Source of the DNA: Bacillus multifaciens
Lineage (GTDB): Bacteria > Bacillota > Bacilli > Bacillales > Bacillaceae_G
Direction: 5' to 3'
NCBI RefSeq assembly: GCF_030756675.1
Contig: NZ_JAVBXD010000003.1
Coordinates: 1-64,000 of the forward strand
Length of the DNA stretch: 64,000 nt
Positions 5,226 to 32,112 of this stretch are shown piece by piece (positions within the stretch are counted from its first letter, which is position 1; each line of letters opens with the position of its first letter). The notes under the pieces are model-generated. The model ran no database searches, was not told where the DNA came from, and saw nothing but the letters and a program-made list of their open reading frames with translations. Position numbers and translations under genes: made by a program.

Positions 5226-6815
5226 ATGTCGACGCAAACTTCGCGGGTTACACTCGTTGGAGAAGTATTACCGGCGTATTTGGAGATTTTGACACCGGAA
5301 GCACTCGCATTTATAAAAGAGTTGCATGAGAATTTTAACGGACGCCGTAAGGAATTACTACAGAAACGAGTAGAAAAGCAAAAGAGAATTGATGCAGGAG
5401 AGTTGTTACACTTTTTAGAGGAAACTGTAAATGTTAGGGCGGATGATTGGATGATTGCACCGCTTCCGAATGATTTACAAGATCGGCGCGTAGAAATTAC
5501 AGGACCGGTTGATCGTAAAATGGTTATTAATGCCCTCAATTCAGGAGCGCGTGTGTTTATGGCGGACTTTGAAGATTCGAATGCACCAACATGGCAAAAT
5601 GCAATGGAAGGGCAAATAAATTTACGAGATGCAGTTAAGGGAACGATTTTATATGAAAATGAAAATGGTAAAAAATATCGTCTCAATGAACAAACAGCTG
5701 TATTAATGGTGCGGCCTCGCGGGTGGCATTTACAAGAAAAGCATGTGTTAGTAGATGGTGAAGAAGTATCTGGGAGTTTATTAGATTTTGGGTTGTTCTT
5801 TTTTCATAATGCAAGGGCGTTAATAAAAAAAGGGAGCGGTCCATACTTTTACTTACCGAAAATGGAAAGTTACTTAGAAGCGAGATTATGGAATGATGTG
5901 TTCGTATTTGCGCAAAAATACGTTGGCATTCCGCATGGAACAATTAAAGCAACGGCACTGCTCGAAACGATTCATGCTTCATTTGAGATGGATGAAATTT
6001 TATATGAGCTTCGTGATCATTCAGCAGGGTTAAACTGCGGACGTTGGGATTATATTTTTAGTTTCTTAAAAACGTTTCGCAATCATGAACAGTTTTTACT
6101 TCCGGACCGGGCACAGGTGACGATGAGTGTTCCTTTTATGCGCGCGTATTGTTTACGCGTCATTCAAACGTGTCATCGCCGGGGTGCACCAGCGATTGGA
6201 GGGATGGCAGCGCAAATTCCAATTAAGAACAACCCGGAAGCAAATGAAGCAGCATTTGAAAAAGTGCGCGCTGATAAGGAGCGCGAAGCTGGTGATGGAC
6301 ATGATGGGACTTGGGTTGCCCATCCGGGACTTGTTCCTGTGGCGATGGAAGTATTTGATCGCATCATGACAAAGCCAAATCAAATCTATCGAAAACGGGA
6401 AGAAATACGTATCACAGAACAAAGTTTATTAGAAGTTCCAGTGGGAACGATTACAGAAACAGGTCTTCGTACAAACATTAGTGTTGGTATTCAATATATT
6501 GCATCGTGGTTAAGCGGCAGGGGAGCTGCACCTATTTATCACTTAATGGAAGATGCGGCAACTGCAGAAATTTCAAGGGCACAAGTGTGGCAATGGATTC
6601 GTCACAAGGAAGGAAAGCTCGAGGATGGAAGAAAAATTACGTTTGCATTAGTAGAACAGTTTAAAGCAGAAGAATTAGAGAAAATAGAGCAAGAGATTGG
6701 TAGTGATCGATTTGAAAAAGGACGATTTGTCGAAGCTACGAACCTATTTACAAATCTTGTTCGTAATGATGAATTCGTATCATTTTTAACGTTACCGGGC
6801 TATGAGATTTTATAA
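5226..6815 (+). CDS. aceB: Malate synthase A
   Basis: A 529-residue malate synthase of isoform A length. It condenses glyoxylate with acetyl-CoA to malate in the glyoxylate bypass. Family landmarks are MADFEDSNAPTW near residues 113-124, MVRPRGWHL near 164-172 (active-site Arg), LPKMES near 215, the E-containing LLETIHASFEMDE near 245 and GHDGTWVAHPGLVPVA near 356-371. AAGGAGAGGC precedes the ATG. It is the first gene of a two-gene operon with isocitrate lyase 12-21 bp downstream. The palindrome over its promoter suggests repression, as expected of genes needed only for growth on acetate or fatty acids. Confidence 0.96.
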   Translation: MSTQTSRVTLVGEVLPAYLEILTPEALAFIKELHENFNGRRKELLQKRVEKQKRIDAGELLHFLEETVNVRADDWMIAPLPNDLQDRRVEITGPVDRKMVINALNSGARVFMADFEDSNAPTWQNAMEGQINLRDAVKGTILYENENGKKYRLNEQTAVLMVRPRGWHLQEKHVLVDGEEVSGSLLDFGLFFFHNARALIKKGSGPYFYLPKMESYLEARLWNDVFVFAQKYVGIPHGTIKATALLETIHASFEMDEILYELRDHSAGLNCGRWDYIFSFLKTFRNHEQFLLPDRAQVTMSVPFMRAYCLRVIQTCHRRGAPAIGGMAAQIPIKNNPEANEAAFEKVRADKEREAGDGHDGTWVAHPGLVPVAMEVFDRIMTKPNQIYRKREEIRITEQSLLEVPVGTITETGLRTNISVGIQYIASWLSGRGAAPIYHLMEDAATAEISRAQVWQWIRHKEGKLEDGRKITFALVEQFKAEELEKIEQEIGSDRFEKGRFVEATNLFTNLVRNDEFVSFLTLPGYEIL

Positions 6816-6836
6816 AGGGAAAAGGGGATGGAAGTA

Positions 6837-8114
6837 ATGGGAAATAAAAGAGCCTTGCAATTACAAGAGAGCTGGGAGCTTGATAAACGTTGGAAAGGAG
6901 TTACACGTCCGTATTCTGCAGAGGAGGTCATTCGTCTTCGCGGATCGGTTGATATTGAATATACGTTAGCACGCCGCGGTGCAGAAAAACTTTGGAATTC
7001 TCTCCATAGCGAAGATTACATTCATGCGTTAGGGGCATTAACTGGGAATCAAGCAATGCAGCAAGTAAAGGCGGGGTTAAAGGCAATTTATTTAAGCGGT
7101 TGGCAAGTAGCGGCAGATGCAAATTTATCAGGTCACATGTATCCAGACCAAAGTTTGTATCCGGCAAACAGTGTGCCGGCGGTTGTGAAACGGATTAATC
7201 AAACGCTGCAGCGTGCAGATCAAATTCAGCATATGGAAGGAAGCGGTGATATTGATTACTTCGTGCCAATTGTTGCTGATGCAGAGGCAGGTTTTGGCGG
7301 GCAACTCAATGTATTTGAACTGATGAAAGGAATGATTGAGGCAGGGGCGTCTGGTGTTCACTTTGAAGATCAACTTTCTTCTGAAAAGAAATGTGGTCAT
7401 TTAGGCGGAAAGGTATTACTCCCAACACAAACGGCAGTGCGTAATTTAATATCAGCACGTCTTGCGGCAGATGTAATGGGAGTGCCAACGCTCATTATTG
7501 CGAGAACAGATGCTGACGCAGCGGATTTAATTACGAGTGATATCGACCCTGTTGATCAACCATTTATTACAGGGGAAAGAACACCAGAAGGGTTCTTTCG
7601 GACGAAAGCTGGACTGGATCAAGCGATTGCACGCGGCTTAGCATATGCACCGTATGCCGACCTTGTTTGGTGTGAAACATCAGAACCGAATTTAGAAGAT
7701 GCAAAACGCTTTGCAGAAGCAATCCATAAAAAATTCCCTGGAAAACTACTAGCTTACAACTGTTCACCGTCTTTTAACTGGAAGAAAAAATTAGACGATA
7801 AAACAATTGCAAACTTCCAAAAAGAAATTGCATCTTACGGCTATAAATTCCAGTTCGTAACACTTGCTGGCTTCCATGCGCTAAACTATGGCATGTTTGA
7901 GCTAGCGCGCGGTTATAAAGAACGAGGTATGGCTGCGTATTCAGAGCTGCAGCAAGCGGAATTTGCCGCAGAGCAGTACGGTTACTCAGCAACGCGTCAC
8001 CAACGAGAAGTTGGTACAGGATATTTTGATGAAGTAGCACAAGTGATTACTGGCGGAACTTCGTCAACGACAGCATTGAAAGGATCTACTGAGGCAGAGC
8101 AGTTTACACGATGA
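6837..8114 (+). CDS. aceA: Isocitrate lyase
   Basis: A 425-residue isocitrate lyase that splits isocitrate into succinate and glyoxylate, the substrate of the upstream malate synthase. The catalytic signature KKCGHLGGK lies around residues 183-191 (active-site Cys about 185), preceded by the Mg-binding [12 protein letters not shown] near 141-152; NCSPSFNW occurs near 310. The ATG at 6837 has AAGGGG nine bases upstream. An in-frame ATG at 6828 is an alternative that would add three residues. A strong terminator follows immediately. Confidence 0.96.
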
Positions 8115-8115
8115 G

Positions 8116-8153
8116 AAAAGAGAGAGTCAGCTACCCTGCTGACTCTCTCTTTT
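8116..8153 (+). terminator. Terminator of aceBA
   Basis: AAAAGAGAGAGTCAGC (8116-8131) pairs with GCTGACTCTCTCTTTT (8138-8153) around a 6-nt loop, starting two bases after the aceA stop. Confidence 0.9.
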
Positions 8154-8256
8154 ATTACAAATATTTCAAAATGGGAAAAATAAAATTGTCTACCAAATAA
8201 TTTTATTTTCTATTGGAAGATTATGTAGTTTCATTCTGTTATTTATACAAACGTAT

Positions 8257-8320
8257 AAAAAGAATTTTTAATTAATTAATAAGGGATTGTAAAAAAATTG
8301 AAAATATCAATTATTTTTTG
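8257..8320 (+). promoter_or_regulatory. Putative ComK AT-box and palindrome upstream of comK
   Basis: AAAAAGAATTTTT (8257-8269) fits the ComK AT-box AAAA-N5-TTTT. It is followed at about 8291-8320 by an inverted repeat built on AAAAATTGA and TCAATTATTTTT. Autoregulation of comK through paired AT-boxes is known in B. subtilis. Only one clear AT-box is seen here, and the region is so A+T-rich that chance matches are likely. Confidence 0.35.
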
Positions 8321-28917: not shown

Positions 28918-29799
28918 CTACCTCGGTGAATTGTAACCCCCTTGGTGGTCTAACTTCCCATCAAACATATCTCCAAGTGATTCAATTTGCTCATATGCCC
29001 GTTCGCCGTGAAGGGAAAGGTCGAGGCCCATTTTCTCTTCATGTTCATGCGCACGAACTGGGAGGAATAAACTGATCCCTTTAATAATTGCATATGTCAT
29101 AGTAGCTGTAAATGCATAGGTCGCTCCAATGGCAAGGAGTTGTTTCCAAAGAAGTGCAGCGTTTCCGTAAAATAGTCCGTCTGCACCTGCGCTGTTAACG
29201 GATGTTGTAGCGAAAAGTCCTGTTGCAATACCGCCCCAAGTTCCGCCGATGCCGTGACAACCGAAGGCATCGAGTGCGTCGTCGTAACCGAGTTTATGTT
29301 TTAAGAAATAGACTGCTAAAAAGCAAAGTGCACCACCGATTGCCCCGATAATCAGAGCGGAGAGTGGTGTTACGAATCCGCAAGATGGTGTAATTGCGAC
29401 GAGACCAGAAACAGCTCCGCAAGCGGCACCTAGTACAGTTGGTTTTTTCTGAAAAAACCATTCTGTCAGCATCCATGTAAGTGCGGAAGCTGCAGCAGCA
29501 GTATTTGTATTAATAAAAGCGGTGAGTGCGACGTCATTTAATGTTAATGTACTACCGACGTTAAAACCGAACCAATCAAAATTACCGATAAGCCCATTCC
29601 AATCAGGACCGAATGCTAAAGAATAACCGATGAAAATCCATTGAATAGACACGATTGCCATCGCACTATAACTGTGCATTGTTGTACTAAGTACATTTTT
29701 ACTGCGAACCATTCCCCCGTAAAATAAAGCAAGCCCAGGTGTCATAATCATCACCATGACAGTAGATAAAAAAAGAAATACTGTATCCCCCATATGCAT
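28918..29799 (-). CDS. Ammonium transporter (Amt) with internal in-frame deletion
   Basis: An Amt-family protein of only 293 residues, against about 400 or more for the family. Residues 1-63 match the N-terminus (LALFYGGMVRSKNVL near 23-37), and from FGFNVGSTLTLNDV (about 78 on) the C-terminal half is normal, including FGCHGIGGTWGG with the second twin-His near residue 180. The joined text IGNFDWFGFNVG (near 29570-29590) skips the block that normally holds the F-gate, the ISGAFAERM-type region and the first pore histidine (VVHI..G). The frame is open. AGGAGGGGAAACG precedes ATG 29799. It is probably non-functional as a channel unless the family assignment of the gap is wrong. Confidence 0.85.
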   Translation of the reverse strand: MHMGDTVFLFLSTVMVMIMTPGLALFYGGMVRSKNVLSTTMHSYSAMAIVSIQWIFIGYSLAFGPDWNGLIGNFDWFGFNVGSTLTLNDVALTAFINTNTAAAASALTWMLTEWFFQKKPTVLGAACGAVSGLVAITPSCGFVTPLSALIIGAIGGALCFLAVYFLKHKLGYDDALDAFGCHGIGGTWGGIATGLFATTSVNSAGADGLFYGNAALLWKQLLAIGATYAFTATMTYAIIKGISLFLPVRAHEHEEKMGLDLSLHGERAYEQIESLGDMFDGKLDHQGGYNSPR

Positions 29800-30019
29800 C
29801 GTTTCCCCTCCTATTATGTTATATAAACTAACATCAAATAATATATTTAGTATCATATTCAAAAAAATATAATAAATTAACAGATTTTTATGAAAATTTA
29901 TTTTTTTGTGTAAGAAAATATAACATGACGTACTTCTTTGTGATTGAAATGCGTTAGTATACGAGAGGGGTTTAAATTGTTATACTTTTCTTATAATTAG
30001 AAAAGTTGGGGGAAGCGAT

Positions 30020-31363
30020 GTGAAGAGGGAGTTATGGCGATATTTTCTATGTTTCATATGTTTATTGTTTGTATTTCAAATGCCTATTCATGTGTCGGCT
30101 GAGGAAACAAGGTCGTGGGAAGATGAGATTGTGTATTCTATTATGATCGATCGTTTTAATAATGGTGATTCAAGAAATGATAAAGGGATTGATACGAATC
30201 GTTTAGAAGCATATCAAGGAGGAGATATTCAGGGGATTATAAAACGACTTGATTATATAAAAGAGATGGGCTTTACTGCTGTATTGTTGTCACCACCCAC
30301 TGCAAGTAGTAGTTATGATGGGTATTCTCCAACTGATATAACGAAAATGAATGAACATTTTGGCCAGGTGAAGGACATGCAGCAACTTGTCCAAGAAGCG
30401 CATGAGCGAGATATGAAAGTAATGCTTGAATTTGTAGTGAATAATGAAAATCAAACGGATGCGATTGAATATGCGAAACAATGGATTAAGCAGACGGATA
30501 TAGATGGTTATCATTTGATACATAATGAGAATGTTCCGAAGTCAGTTTTGAATGAAGTGGTTGCATCTGCGCAAAGTGTGAAACAACATTTTTTTGTAAT
30601 AACGGATACGCAAATGGAAGGAGCAAAAGGAGTATGGAATCAAGCTTATCAAGAGCGCATGACAGACGTGTTTGCAAAGCCGAATATTTCTGTAAAGTCA
30701 TTGTATGATGTGACGAAAAGCGGCGGCGATCGTTTGGAAGGGACGTTTGTAGATAATAGTCAAACGGAGCGTTTTGTTAGAAAAGCAAAAGAAAATAAAT
30801 ATTATCCACCGGCCCGTTTGAAATTAGCGCTTGTTTATTTATACACATCACCGGGCATTCCCTTTGTATACTATGGTACTGAAATTGCATTAGATGGAGG
30901 GAATGTACCTGATAATCGCCGTTTAATGGATTTTAAATCAGATGAGAAATTTTTGCAGTATATAGGGAAATTAGGAGAACTTCGCAAAACATTACCATCA
31001 CTTCGTTACGGAACATTTGAATTATTATATGATAAAGATGGTATGAGCCTAATAAAGCGTAGGTATAAAGGTGAAACAACACTTATCGCCATAAATAACA
31101 CAACGGAAACACAAAAGGTGGAACTTGCCGCAAATGAATTTGGGAAAGATCATGAGCTGCGTGGATTGTTAGAAGATGATAGGGTGCGAGAAGAAGATGG
31201 GAAATATTACATTGTGCAAAAAAGAGAAACTGCGAATGTATATGCGCTTGCGGAAAAAACAGGGTGGAACTGGTCGTTTATTGCTGCTTTAGTAGGTGTG
31301 AATGTGTTATTTATCATCTTCCTTGTATTGATAAAGAAACGAAAAGGAACGGAATCATCTTGA
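30020..31363 (+). CDS. Membrane-anchored GH13 (alpha-amylase-like) protein lacking catalytic residues
   Basis: A 447-residue exported protein with a signal peptide (1-27, ending VSA), a GH13-like barrel (about 33-345) starting VYSIMIDRFNNGD, a C-terminal beta domain, and a membrane segment near 420-440 ending in KKRK. The fold signature is clear, but all four GH13 conserved regions are altered. Region I reads LEFVVNNEN instead of D..VNH. Region II reads DGYHLIHNE, with Ile/His where R.D is needed. Region III reads VITDTQ in place of the GE acid. Region IV reads FVDNSQ in place of NHD. It is thus probably a binding or sensor protein rather than an amylase. GTG start with GGGGG upstream. Confidence 0.8.
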   Translation: MKRELWRYFLCFICLLFVFQMPIHVSAEETRSWEDEIVYSIMIDRFNNGDSRNDKGIDTNRLEAYQGGDIQGIIKRLDYIKEMGFTAVLLSPPTASSSYDGYSPTDITKMNEHFGQVKDMQQLVQEAHERDMKVMLEFVVNNENQTDAIEYAKQWIKQTDIDGYHLIHNENVPKSVLNEVVASAQSVKQHFFVITDTQMEGAKGVWNQAYQERMTDVFAKPNISVKSLYDVTKSGGDRLEGTFVDNSQTERFVRKAKENKYYPPARLKLALVYLYTSPGIPFVYYGTEIALDGGNVPDNRRLMDFKSDEKFLQYIGKLGELRKTLPSLRYGTFELLYDKDGMSLIKRRYKGETTLIAINNTTETQKVELAANEFGKDHELRGLLEDDRVREEDGKYYIVQKRETANVYALAEKTGWNWSFIAALVGVNVLFIIFLVLIKKRKGTESS

Positions 31364-31371
31364 AAAATAAA

Positions 31372-31410
31372 AGAAGCTGACCAAAAAAGTGGATTTTGGT
31401 CAGCTCTTTT
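31372..31410. terminator. Convergent terminator
   Basis: GAAGCTGACCAAAA pairs with TTTTGGTCAGCTC and is followed by TTTTT. It lies between the GH13-like gene and yajQ. Confidence 0.9.
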
Positions 31411-31419
31411 TATGTATGA

Positions 31420-31911
31420 CTATCGGTAGTTGATAAATTGTACGTCGATTGATAAATCAGCTCCGCGTACAGCTGCGATAACTGCTTGTAGGTCATCACG
31501 GTTTTTTCCTGTTACACGAACTTGGTCATCTTGTACTTGTGTTTTTACTTTTAATTTTAATTCTTTAATAATGTTATTAATTTTTTTCGCATTTTCTTTA
31601 TCAATGCCTTGTTGTAATTTTGCGCGTTGACGTACTGTACCGCCAGAAGCGTTTTCGACTTTTCCATAATCTAAGTTTTTGATCGGAACTTCACGCTTAA
31701 TTAATTTTGAAATCAAAACGTCTTTTACTTGATCTAATTTGTACTCGTCGTCAGAAGTTAATACGATGTCCTCTTTTTCTAATTTAATGTCGCTTTTACT
31801 TCCTTTAAAGTCATAGCGATTTTGAATTTCTTTTAAAGCGATATTAATCGCGTTTGTTACTTCTGGAAACTCTACTTTTGAAACGATATCAAAAGAACTA
31901 TCCTTTGCCAT
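31420..31911 (-). CDS. YajQ family nucleotide-binding protein
   Basis: A 163-residue YajQ/DUF520 protein starting [18 protein letters not shown], with NRYDFKGSK near residues 31-39 and a ferredoxin-like two-domain layout ending [16 protein letters not shown]. Some family members bind cyclic-di-GMP; the function in Bacillus is unknown. GGAGGTG lies six bases before ATG 31911. Monocistronic, divergent from cvfB. Confidence 0.92.
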
Positions 31912-32112
31912 AATAAGCACCTCCAAATTAAATTCCACCTCTATTATAGTGAATTTTGGTCAGTTGGACAAATAAAGGAAAAACCGTGTATAATGAAACT
32001 TTGTTTGGAATGATAAAAAAATGATATAAAGCTGTTCTCGATGCGGGTGTTTTTATATGAAAATACGACCCGTTAGAATAAGATAAATTATATAGAGAAG
32101 GGAATTAAAAAT

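Follow-up and report, generated by a model that had tools for sequence, protein, structure and literature searches.

The locus and its product

The window, a stretch of 64,000 nucleotides, carries on its forward strand a gene for a membrane-anchored pseudo-amylase derived from subfamily GH13_45 (30020..31363, GTG start, 447 amino acids). The original prediction had described an intact gene with a signal peptide and a C-terminal anchor, and the open reading frame, its start and stop, and the C-terminal helix were all recovered where it had placed them. A Shine-Dalgarno-like GGGGGAA, read from the sequence, precedes the GTG by 5 nt (30008..30014, forward strand). The signal peptide, judged by eye, covers approximately residues 1-28 and is probably cut after VSA (30020..30103, forward strand); the corresponding part of the predicted model is a helix at residues 2-19 followed by low pLDDT at 21-29. 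The (beta/alpha)8 barrel is followed by a C-terminal beta-sandwich domain (PF22026; 31010..31255, forward strand), which is not relaxed in inactive relatives. The last segment (31256..31363, forward strand) comprises a juxtamembrane TGWNWSF, a membrane helix placed at about residues 420-440 by the model and hydropathy (residues 418-445 in the predicted model), a KKRK tail, and the stop codon. A bidirectional terminator-like hairpin (31375..31405, assigned to neither strand) separates the gene from yajQ, in a region where three terminator-like sites were found and 1.6 are expected by chance.

Both Pfam matches of the protein lie above the cut-off, namely PF00128 (1.9e-37) and PF22026 (Alpha-amylase_C_2, 1e-28). 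The closest solved structures are PDB 5a2b (E 1.7e-113) and 4e2o (E 2.1e-105), amylases of Anoxybacillus and Geobacillus that PMC11448133 assigns to subfamily GH13_45 (this and the other papers given by PMC number are cited from the parts of their text that were available). Superposition of the predicted structure, a check proposed with the original prediction, gave a confident fold matching GH13_45 structures with domain B absent. The anchored alpha-amylase fold is thus borne out by both Pfam families, the predicted structure and the C-terminal helix. Membership of GH13_45 by descent follows from the 5a2b match and from a tree grouping with intact Ectobacillus-like members at 100/98.

The gene order in the window is addA-faa-yisL-asnO-amt-gene-yajQ-cvfB-prsA-yitT-yitU-clpB, in which some names are those we take to apply and the families were identified separately. 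As segments of this order recur around the gene in many relatives, the gene is probably in its ancestral position. The convergent downstream neighbour yajQ (31420..31938, reverse strand) serves as a landmark of the conserved locus, while the divergent upstream neighbour amt/nrgA (28918..29862, reverse strand) is internally shortened. Its product has 314 amino acids, and its match breaks at about residue 95-101 in L059, L225, L226, and L237 (in L237 also at 137), with approximately 300-380 bp of extra sequence between the pieces in these four relatives. This pattern suggests that the window copy has undergone an in-frame internal deletion, which would take out membrane helices.

Catalytic residues and substrate contacts

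Every substitution that the original prediction had named in regions I to IV reappeared in the alignment with 5a2b. Region I reads LEFVVNN instead of LDFVVNH (30425..30445; D to E137, H to N142), and region II reads DGYHLIHNEN instead of DGYRLDTVKH (30503..30532; R to H165, D to I167, H to N171). In region III, VITDTQ places ITD where LGE is found (30596..30613; acid/base E to D196), and in region IV, FVDNSQT places VDNSQ where LDNHD is found (30746..30766; H to S247, stabiliser D to Q248); all four lie on the forward strand. The nucleophile, acid/base, and stabiliser positions are thus occupied by I167, D196, and Q248, which is neither Asp/Glu/Asp nor the Asp/Glu/His of BmaN1. The conserved partner Arg is replaced by H165 and the two active-site His by N142 and S247, and a carboxylate remains at the acid/base position (D196).

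The original prediction did not include a further loss, that of domain B, which normally lies between strand 3 and helix 3 and corresponds to residues 140-186 of TASKA (PMC4791539). At its site (30443..30457, forward strand), the window protein has 12 residues, compared with 58-63 in 105 relatives with the full intact set. Seventeen residues or fewer were found at this site in 25 further proteins among 226, one of which (L052) belongs there solely owing to masked sequence.

Loss of catalytic residues is no proof of lost activity, because BmaN1 is reported to be active with Lys, Glu, and His at the triad and an Asp beside the Lys (PMC5347038). On this precedent, and with D196 kept at the acid/base position, the aberrant site of the window protein might retain residual activity or perform a different reaction. 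However, BmaN1 has a Glu and the adjacent Asp, whereas the window protein has neither a Glu nor a carboxylate beside I167 (I167-H168-N169), and domain B, the partner Arg, and the partner His are gone as well. We therefore regard catalysis by this protein as highly improbable.

Of the nine maltose-contacting residues listed for TASKA in PMC4791539, two are left, Y102 (equivalent to Tyr100) and R300 (equivalent to Arg362). With domain B absent too, this speaks against the glycan binding that had been suggested, as far as the old cleft is concerned. A tryptophan pair before region II and the LPDlx motif in CSR-V are given as GH13_45 features in PMC11448133; the window protein has one Trp of the two (AKQWIKQ), and the stretch carrying LPDlx is deleted. 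Another GH13_45 feature is a C-terminal stretch, some 30 residues long, in which five aromatics are conserved; the window protein has a membrane helix with TGWNWSF before it, which may or may not correspond to the published positions.

The calcium ligands listed in section 5 of PMC4791539 were mapped by alignment. The Ca2 site is retained (N48, N53, D54, G67, D69; 30149..30226, forward strand), and its four side-chain ligands are also kept in 73, 75, 66, and 85 of 86 inactive representatives. The Asn of Ca1 is kept in the window protein, but in only 25/86 inactive representatives, and the Ca1 ligands from domain B are lost.

Distribution and phylogeny of relatives

No relative matched in a first genome scan; from a second, with an alignment including two amylases, the best 80 of 121 loci were kept. 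The gene was found in 19/19 genomes of the Ectobacillus panaciterrae family, in 252/397 genomes of its order (E <= 1e-80, a few of these matches being other GH13 proteins), and in 55/150 genomes of the Macrococcus order (E <= 1e-50). All 23 new proteins read from the 55 Macrococcus-order matches are without D/E/D. In the Ectobacillus panaciterrae order, 171 of the 252 matched genomes were read and 77 low scorers were picked deliberately, so that the proportions of intact and inactive genes should not be read as prevalences.

After 24 loci scoring <250 bits and 28 duplicates (254 to 226) were left out, 226 distinct proteins including that of the window were available, 107 with D/E/D at the triad and 119 without. 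All three residues are lost in 58 of the latter, two in 52, and one in 9. A hydrophobic C-terminal membrane helix is present in 102/107 proteins with D/E/D and in 118/119 without. L216 and L257 have the D/E/D letters and have lost the Arg and/or His; they are counted as D/E/D among the 226 and as inactive in the counts of maltodextrin genes below.

Within the Ectobacillus panaciterrae family, four of the 19 genomes have an intact gene and 15 an inactive one; 13 of these 15 make up what we take to be a cereus-type group. All 13 cereus-type genomes are inactive, and 12 share the changed residues Q/D/M. The altered site is itself conserved in these 12 (L106-L117; about DGYNLQEVNNV, ADLN, and DDEMTKR), as if the pocket had been put to a new use. 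The amylase-like protein of L042, whose record is titled Bacillus subtilis strain DE0224, groups with proteins of other genomes, and the name may be wrong; to our knowledge, B. subtilis has no amylase-like gene of this type.

Neither of the two trees includes the catalytic motifs, domain B, or the signal peptide. L052, L090, L061, L036, and L173 were excluded from both, and L257, L054, and L055 additionally from the careful tree of 80. On the tree of 126, the catalytic state changes seven times with simple labels (L216 and L257 as intact) and six times after L216 is relabelled and L257 left out; loss of domain B alone requires seven changes. The careful tree gives seven changes, at least five of which are forced by supported branches, and its bootstrap, which is not fully settled, gives 7-9. 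Since 0/200 bootstrap trees have one change, a single ancient loss is ruled out. The trees themselves count changes and do not distinguish loss from gain; we take the changes as losses because joint regain of the triad, Arg, His, and domain B would be implausible.

The window protein falls in a clade (100/98) with L101 (intact), L059 (intact, Ectobacillus panaciterrae), and L104 (inactive), which places its loss near intact relatives and apart from the large inactive clades. Separate losses in the window and L104 are not firm, as the support for their split is weak (98/76 and 100/41). The window's terminal branch is long (0.67), and its CvfB is 71-74% identical to that of five genomes of the L059/L101 clade, in keeping with an Ectobacillus-like origin of the DNA.

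Association with maltodextrin genes

In Rossellomorea (L018), the intact gene follows genes for a solute-binding protein and two ABC permeases and precedes one for a LacI-family regulator, as identified by Pfam, and a neopullulanase-type GH13 gene lies upstream on the opposite strand. We label these by family as malE, malF, malG, malR, and npl. L001 has the same order of malE, malF, and malG, with an extra gene between the amylase gene and malR.

Among the 217 of 225 loci with flanks of at least 1.2 kb on each side, malF lies near 94/102 intact genes versus 3/115 inactive genes, and any of npl, malE, malF, or malG near 100/102 versus 25/115. Because flank lengths differ, the count was repeated for the 139 loci with at least 3.5 kb on both sides, with similar figures for malF (58/64 intact versus 2/75 inactive) and for any of the four genes (62/64 versus 10/75). 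Across the whole window, the sole match to queries from the cluster was the pseudo-amylase gene itself.

The closest relatives can be arranged in a series. An intact gene is accompanied by malEFG in G010, G012, and G026; G001 also has an intact gene, but lacks malF and malG and has a truncated malR. G011 is inactive, with no mal genes between amt and the gene and the other side beyond the contig end; the window is likewise inactive, with no mal genes between amt and the pseudo-amylase gene. In L059 (Ectobacillus panaciterrae), the LacI-family gene next to the intact amylase gene is truncated (7811-8269) and malF and malG are missing, apparently a stage in the decay of the cluster.

There are exceptions: npl and malR still accompany the inactive gene in the 13 cereus-type loci, and malF is retained near the inactive L165, L265, and L272. 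Moreover, a paired-lineage test of catalysis against mal genes found only 4-5 independent pairs and was not significant (p 0.125); with so few pairs, the link is strong in the counts and unproven as correlated evolution.

These data bear on the possibility that the protein, though unable to cut, still binds maltodextrin or glycogen at the membrane through its open cleft or domain C. The retained barrel and domain C, the npl and malR genes kept in some inactive clades, and the starch binding proposed for the GH13_45 C-terminal region (PMC11448133) would all suit such an alpha-glucan receptor. Nevertheless, seven of the nine maltose contacts listed in PMC4791539 have gone from the window protein together with domain B, and npl, malE, malF, and malG were undetected in the flanking DNA examined around 90/115 inactive genes. 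A receptor of this kind is, in our estimation, rather unlikely.

Where flanks are at least 7 kb, yisL lies near 44/76 inactive versus 1/70 intact loci. In several inactive clades, this small DUF1516 gene, whose product looks membrane-bound, is no more than about 130 bp upstream on the same strand in an operon-like arrangement (L042 at 5587-7401, L056, L058, L201, L203, L204, and L208). Its proximity may simply follow from the absence of the maltodextrin cluster that would otherwise intervene. Neighbours differ among the inactive clades, and neither amt nor yisL is supported as a partner; yisL is 4 kb away in the window. Genes of BmaN1 type (K/E/H) and their near relatives (L168, L172, L174, L176, L177, and L186) lie 231-289 bp downstream of a same-strand amt.

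Patterns of constraint

Estimation of dN/dS across the group had also been proposed with the original prediction. Pairs of inactive members (70-93% identity) gave a median of 0.123 (range 0.078-0.289, 23/23 pairs usable), about twice the median of 0.055 for intact pairs (25/34 usable); L052, L090, L216, and L257 were left out. The inactive members are therefore under purifying selection, constrained somewhat less than the enzymes. For the window gene itself no dN/dS is available, since dS is saturated against all four relatives tried. Its reading frame has no stops where 17.4 would be expected if the whole terminal branch were neutral; were a tenth of the branch neutral, 1.7 would be expected, so that none is unsurprising.

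Conservation along the window protein is uneven. Identity to L059 is 29% in residues 176-240 and 79% in 263-330, the latter stretch being 79-82% identical to the intact L059 and L101; the intact pair L101-L059 is uneven too, although less so (67% and 88%). When 86 inactive representatives were compared with 36 intact ones (L257, L054, L055, and L060 left out), 27/301 barrel columns were more conserved in the inactive group versus 59/113 columns from residue 331 on. A rank test on column conservation between these parts gave p 2.5e-27, with the columns treated as independent, which they are not truly, and the two groups differing in diversity. Constraint has thus shifted to the C-terminal module, and the column counts and calcium ligands together indicate a constrained unit of the C domain, stalk, and helix plus a structural corner of the barrel. 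Overall, inactive proteins do not carry a juxtamembrane G-x-N motif more often than intact ones (91/119 versus 81/101); among the representatives, it occurs in 72/86 inactive and 22/36 intact proteins.

It could be argued that the window gene is a decaying relic, an amylase gene that lost its maltodextrin cluster and is drifting to eventual loss with no function in the organism. The absence of maltodextrin genes beside it, the shortened amt next door, the long branch, the low identity to L059 in residues 176-240, and the doubled dN/dS of inactive relatives would be expected of such a gene. A relic is harder to reconcile with an intact reading frame that still has a ribosome-site-like sequence, signal peptide, anchor, and terminator-like hairpin, or with the high identity kept in residues 263-330, even if the intact pair is uneven as well. 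Inactive homologues also persist groupwide, in all cereus-type genomes and in the Macrococcus-order proteins read. We consider the relic explanation unlikely. A frameshift or sequencing artefact is ruled out by the intact reading frame and by similar losses in many other genomes.

Discussion

The window gene probably encodes a retained non-catalytic pseudoenzyme, tethered to the membrane and likely an ancillary or scaffolding subunit, that derives from the amylase of a maltodextrin cluster. The ancestor would have been a cell-surface alpha-amylase encoded in a malE-malF-malG-amy-malR cluster, held at the membrane by its C-terminal helix and probably feeding a maltodextrin importer. The importer cluster would then have been lost in the window lineage and the active site and domain B would have decayed afterwards, an order of events that we infer. 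What persisted would be the signal peptide, the remaining barrel, a single calcium site, the C-terminal beta-sandwich, and the membrane anchor, presumably because the C-terminal module and anchor still performed a needed task once the importer had gone. At present, the protein probably forms an extracytoplasmic body on the membrane, with the C-terminal domain, stalk, and helix contacting another component of the membrane or envelope. The window copy is presumably expressed and under selection, and its product would have a partner.

That the protein is a maintained pseudoenzyme, as the original prediction proposed, holds for the group (dN/dS 0.08-0.29 in 23/23 pairs, and anchored inactive relatives in many genomes). 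For the window's own gene, the evidence is indirect (an intact reading frame on a long branch), given the saturated dS. The scaffold role proposed at the same time may apply and fits the conservation pattern, while the wall association suggested with it would be no more than a conjecture.

More tentatively, it is conceivable that a class of membrane-tethered pseudo-amylases in Bacillales and Staphylococcales has repeatedly been made from the maltodextrin-cluster amylase upon loss of the importer. The ancestor's C-terminal domain and anchor would then already have had a second, non-catalytic job, for instance that of an ancillary subunit as a bacterial counterpart of 4F2hc/rBAT. Because catalysis was lost more than once at this locus while the anchor and C domain stayed, the idea of a moonlighting ancestor can be put to a direct test in close relatives that differ in whether the active site is present. 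In print, such proteins are called putative alpha-amylases (PMC5347038). Should starch hydrolysis be beyond many of them, then a surface protein encoded in many Bacillales genomes has a function still to be found. PMC11448133 reports a transmembrane helix within the C-terminal region and proposes that this region binds starch; its conservation in members without an active site bears on that idea. Our literature search, in which subscription papers were thinly covered, found no work that treats how widespread these proteins are, how often they arose, their link to the operon, or the retention of their C-terminal module, nor any on anchored GH13 pseudoenzymes in these bacteria beyond the papers cited here.

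Among known systems, the GH13_45 amylases ASKA and TASKA (PDB 5a2a-c) and GTA (4e2o) share the domain A and C fold with the window protein at an identity of 42-53% that varies with the alignment, and sequenced full-length relatives have the same layout of signal peptide and C-terminal helix. ASKA, TASKA, and GTA cut starch and have the full Asp/Glu/Asp, Arg, His, domain B, and Ca1 site, whereas the window protein is without the triad, Arg, His, domain B, and most Ca1 ligands. BmaN1 of Bacillus megaterium resembles it in its aberrant catalytic residues, its GH13_45 membership, its C-terminal membrane helix (PMC5347038), and the Glu for Asp at the start of region I. Unlike the window protein, BmaN1 keeps Glu231 and domain B and is reported active in the same paper. 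Proteins of BmaN1 type (K/E/H; representative L172) do not group with the window on our trees; one of them, L175, has at its end the C-terminal residues given for BmaN1 in PMC11448133. PMC5347038 describes BmaN1 together with seven relatives (Nos 28-34) whose triad is wholly and irregularly substituted, and PMC11239784 again notes a GH13_45 subgroup with an aberrant triad. Nos 28-34, which the text of PMC5347038 places with the BaqA group, share with the window protein the replacement of the whole triad; they are termed putative alpha-amylases there, and their anchoring, retention, recurrence, operon context, and loss of domain B are untreated in the available part of that paper.

4F2hc and rBAT, heavy chains of mammalian amino acid transporters, likewise present a GH13 fold on a single membrane helix; 4F2hc, which is also without domain B and a full active site (PMC8537225), offers the nearest analogy. 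In contrast to the window protein, these heavy chains are eukaryotic, carry the transmembrane domain before the ectodomain, and have a known transporter partner. The likeness is one of layout, not of descent or proven function.
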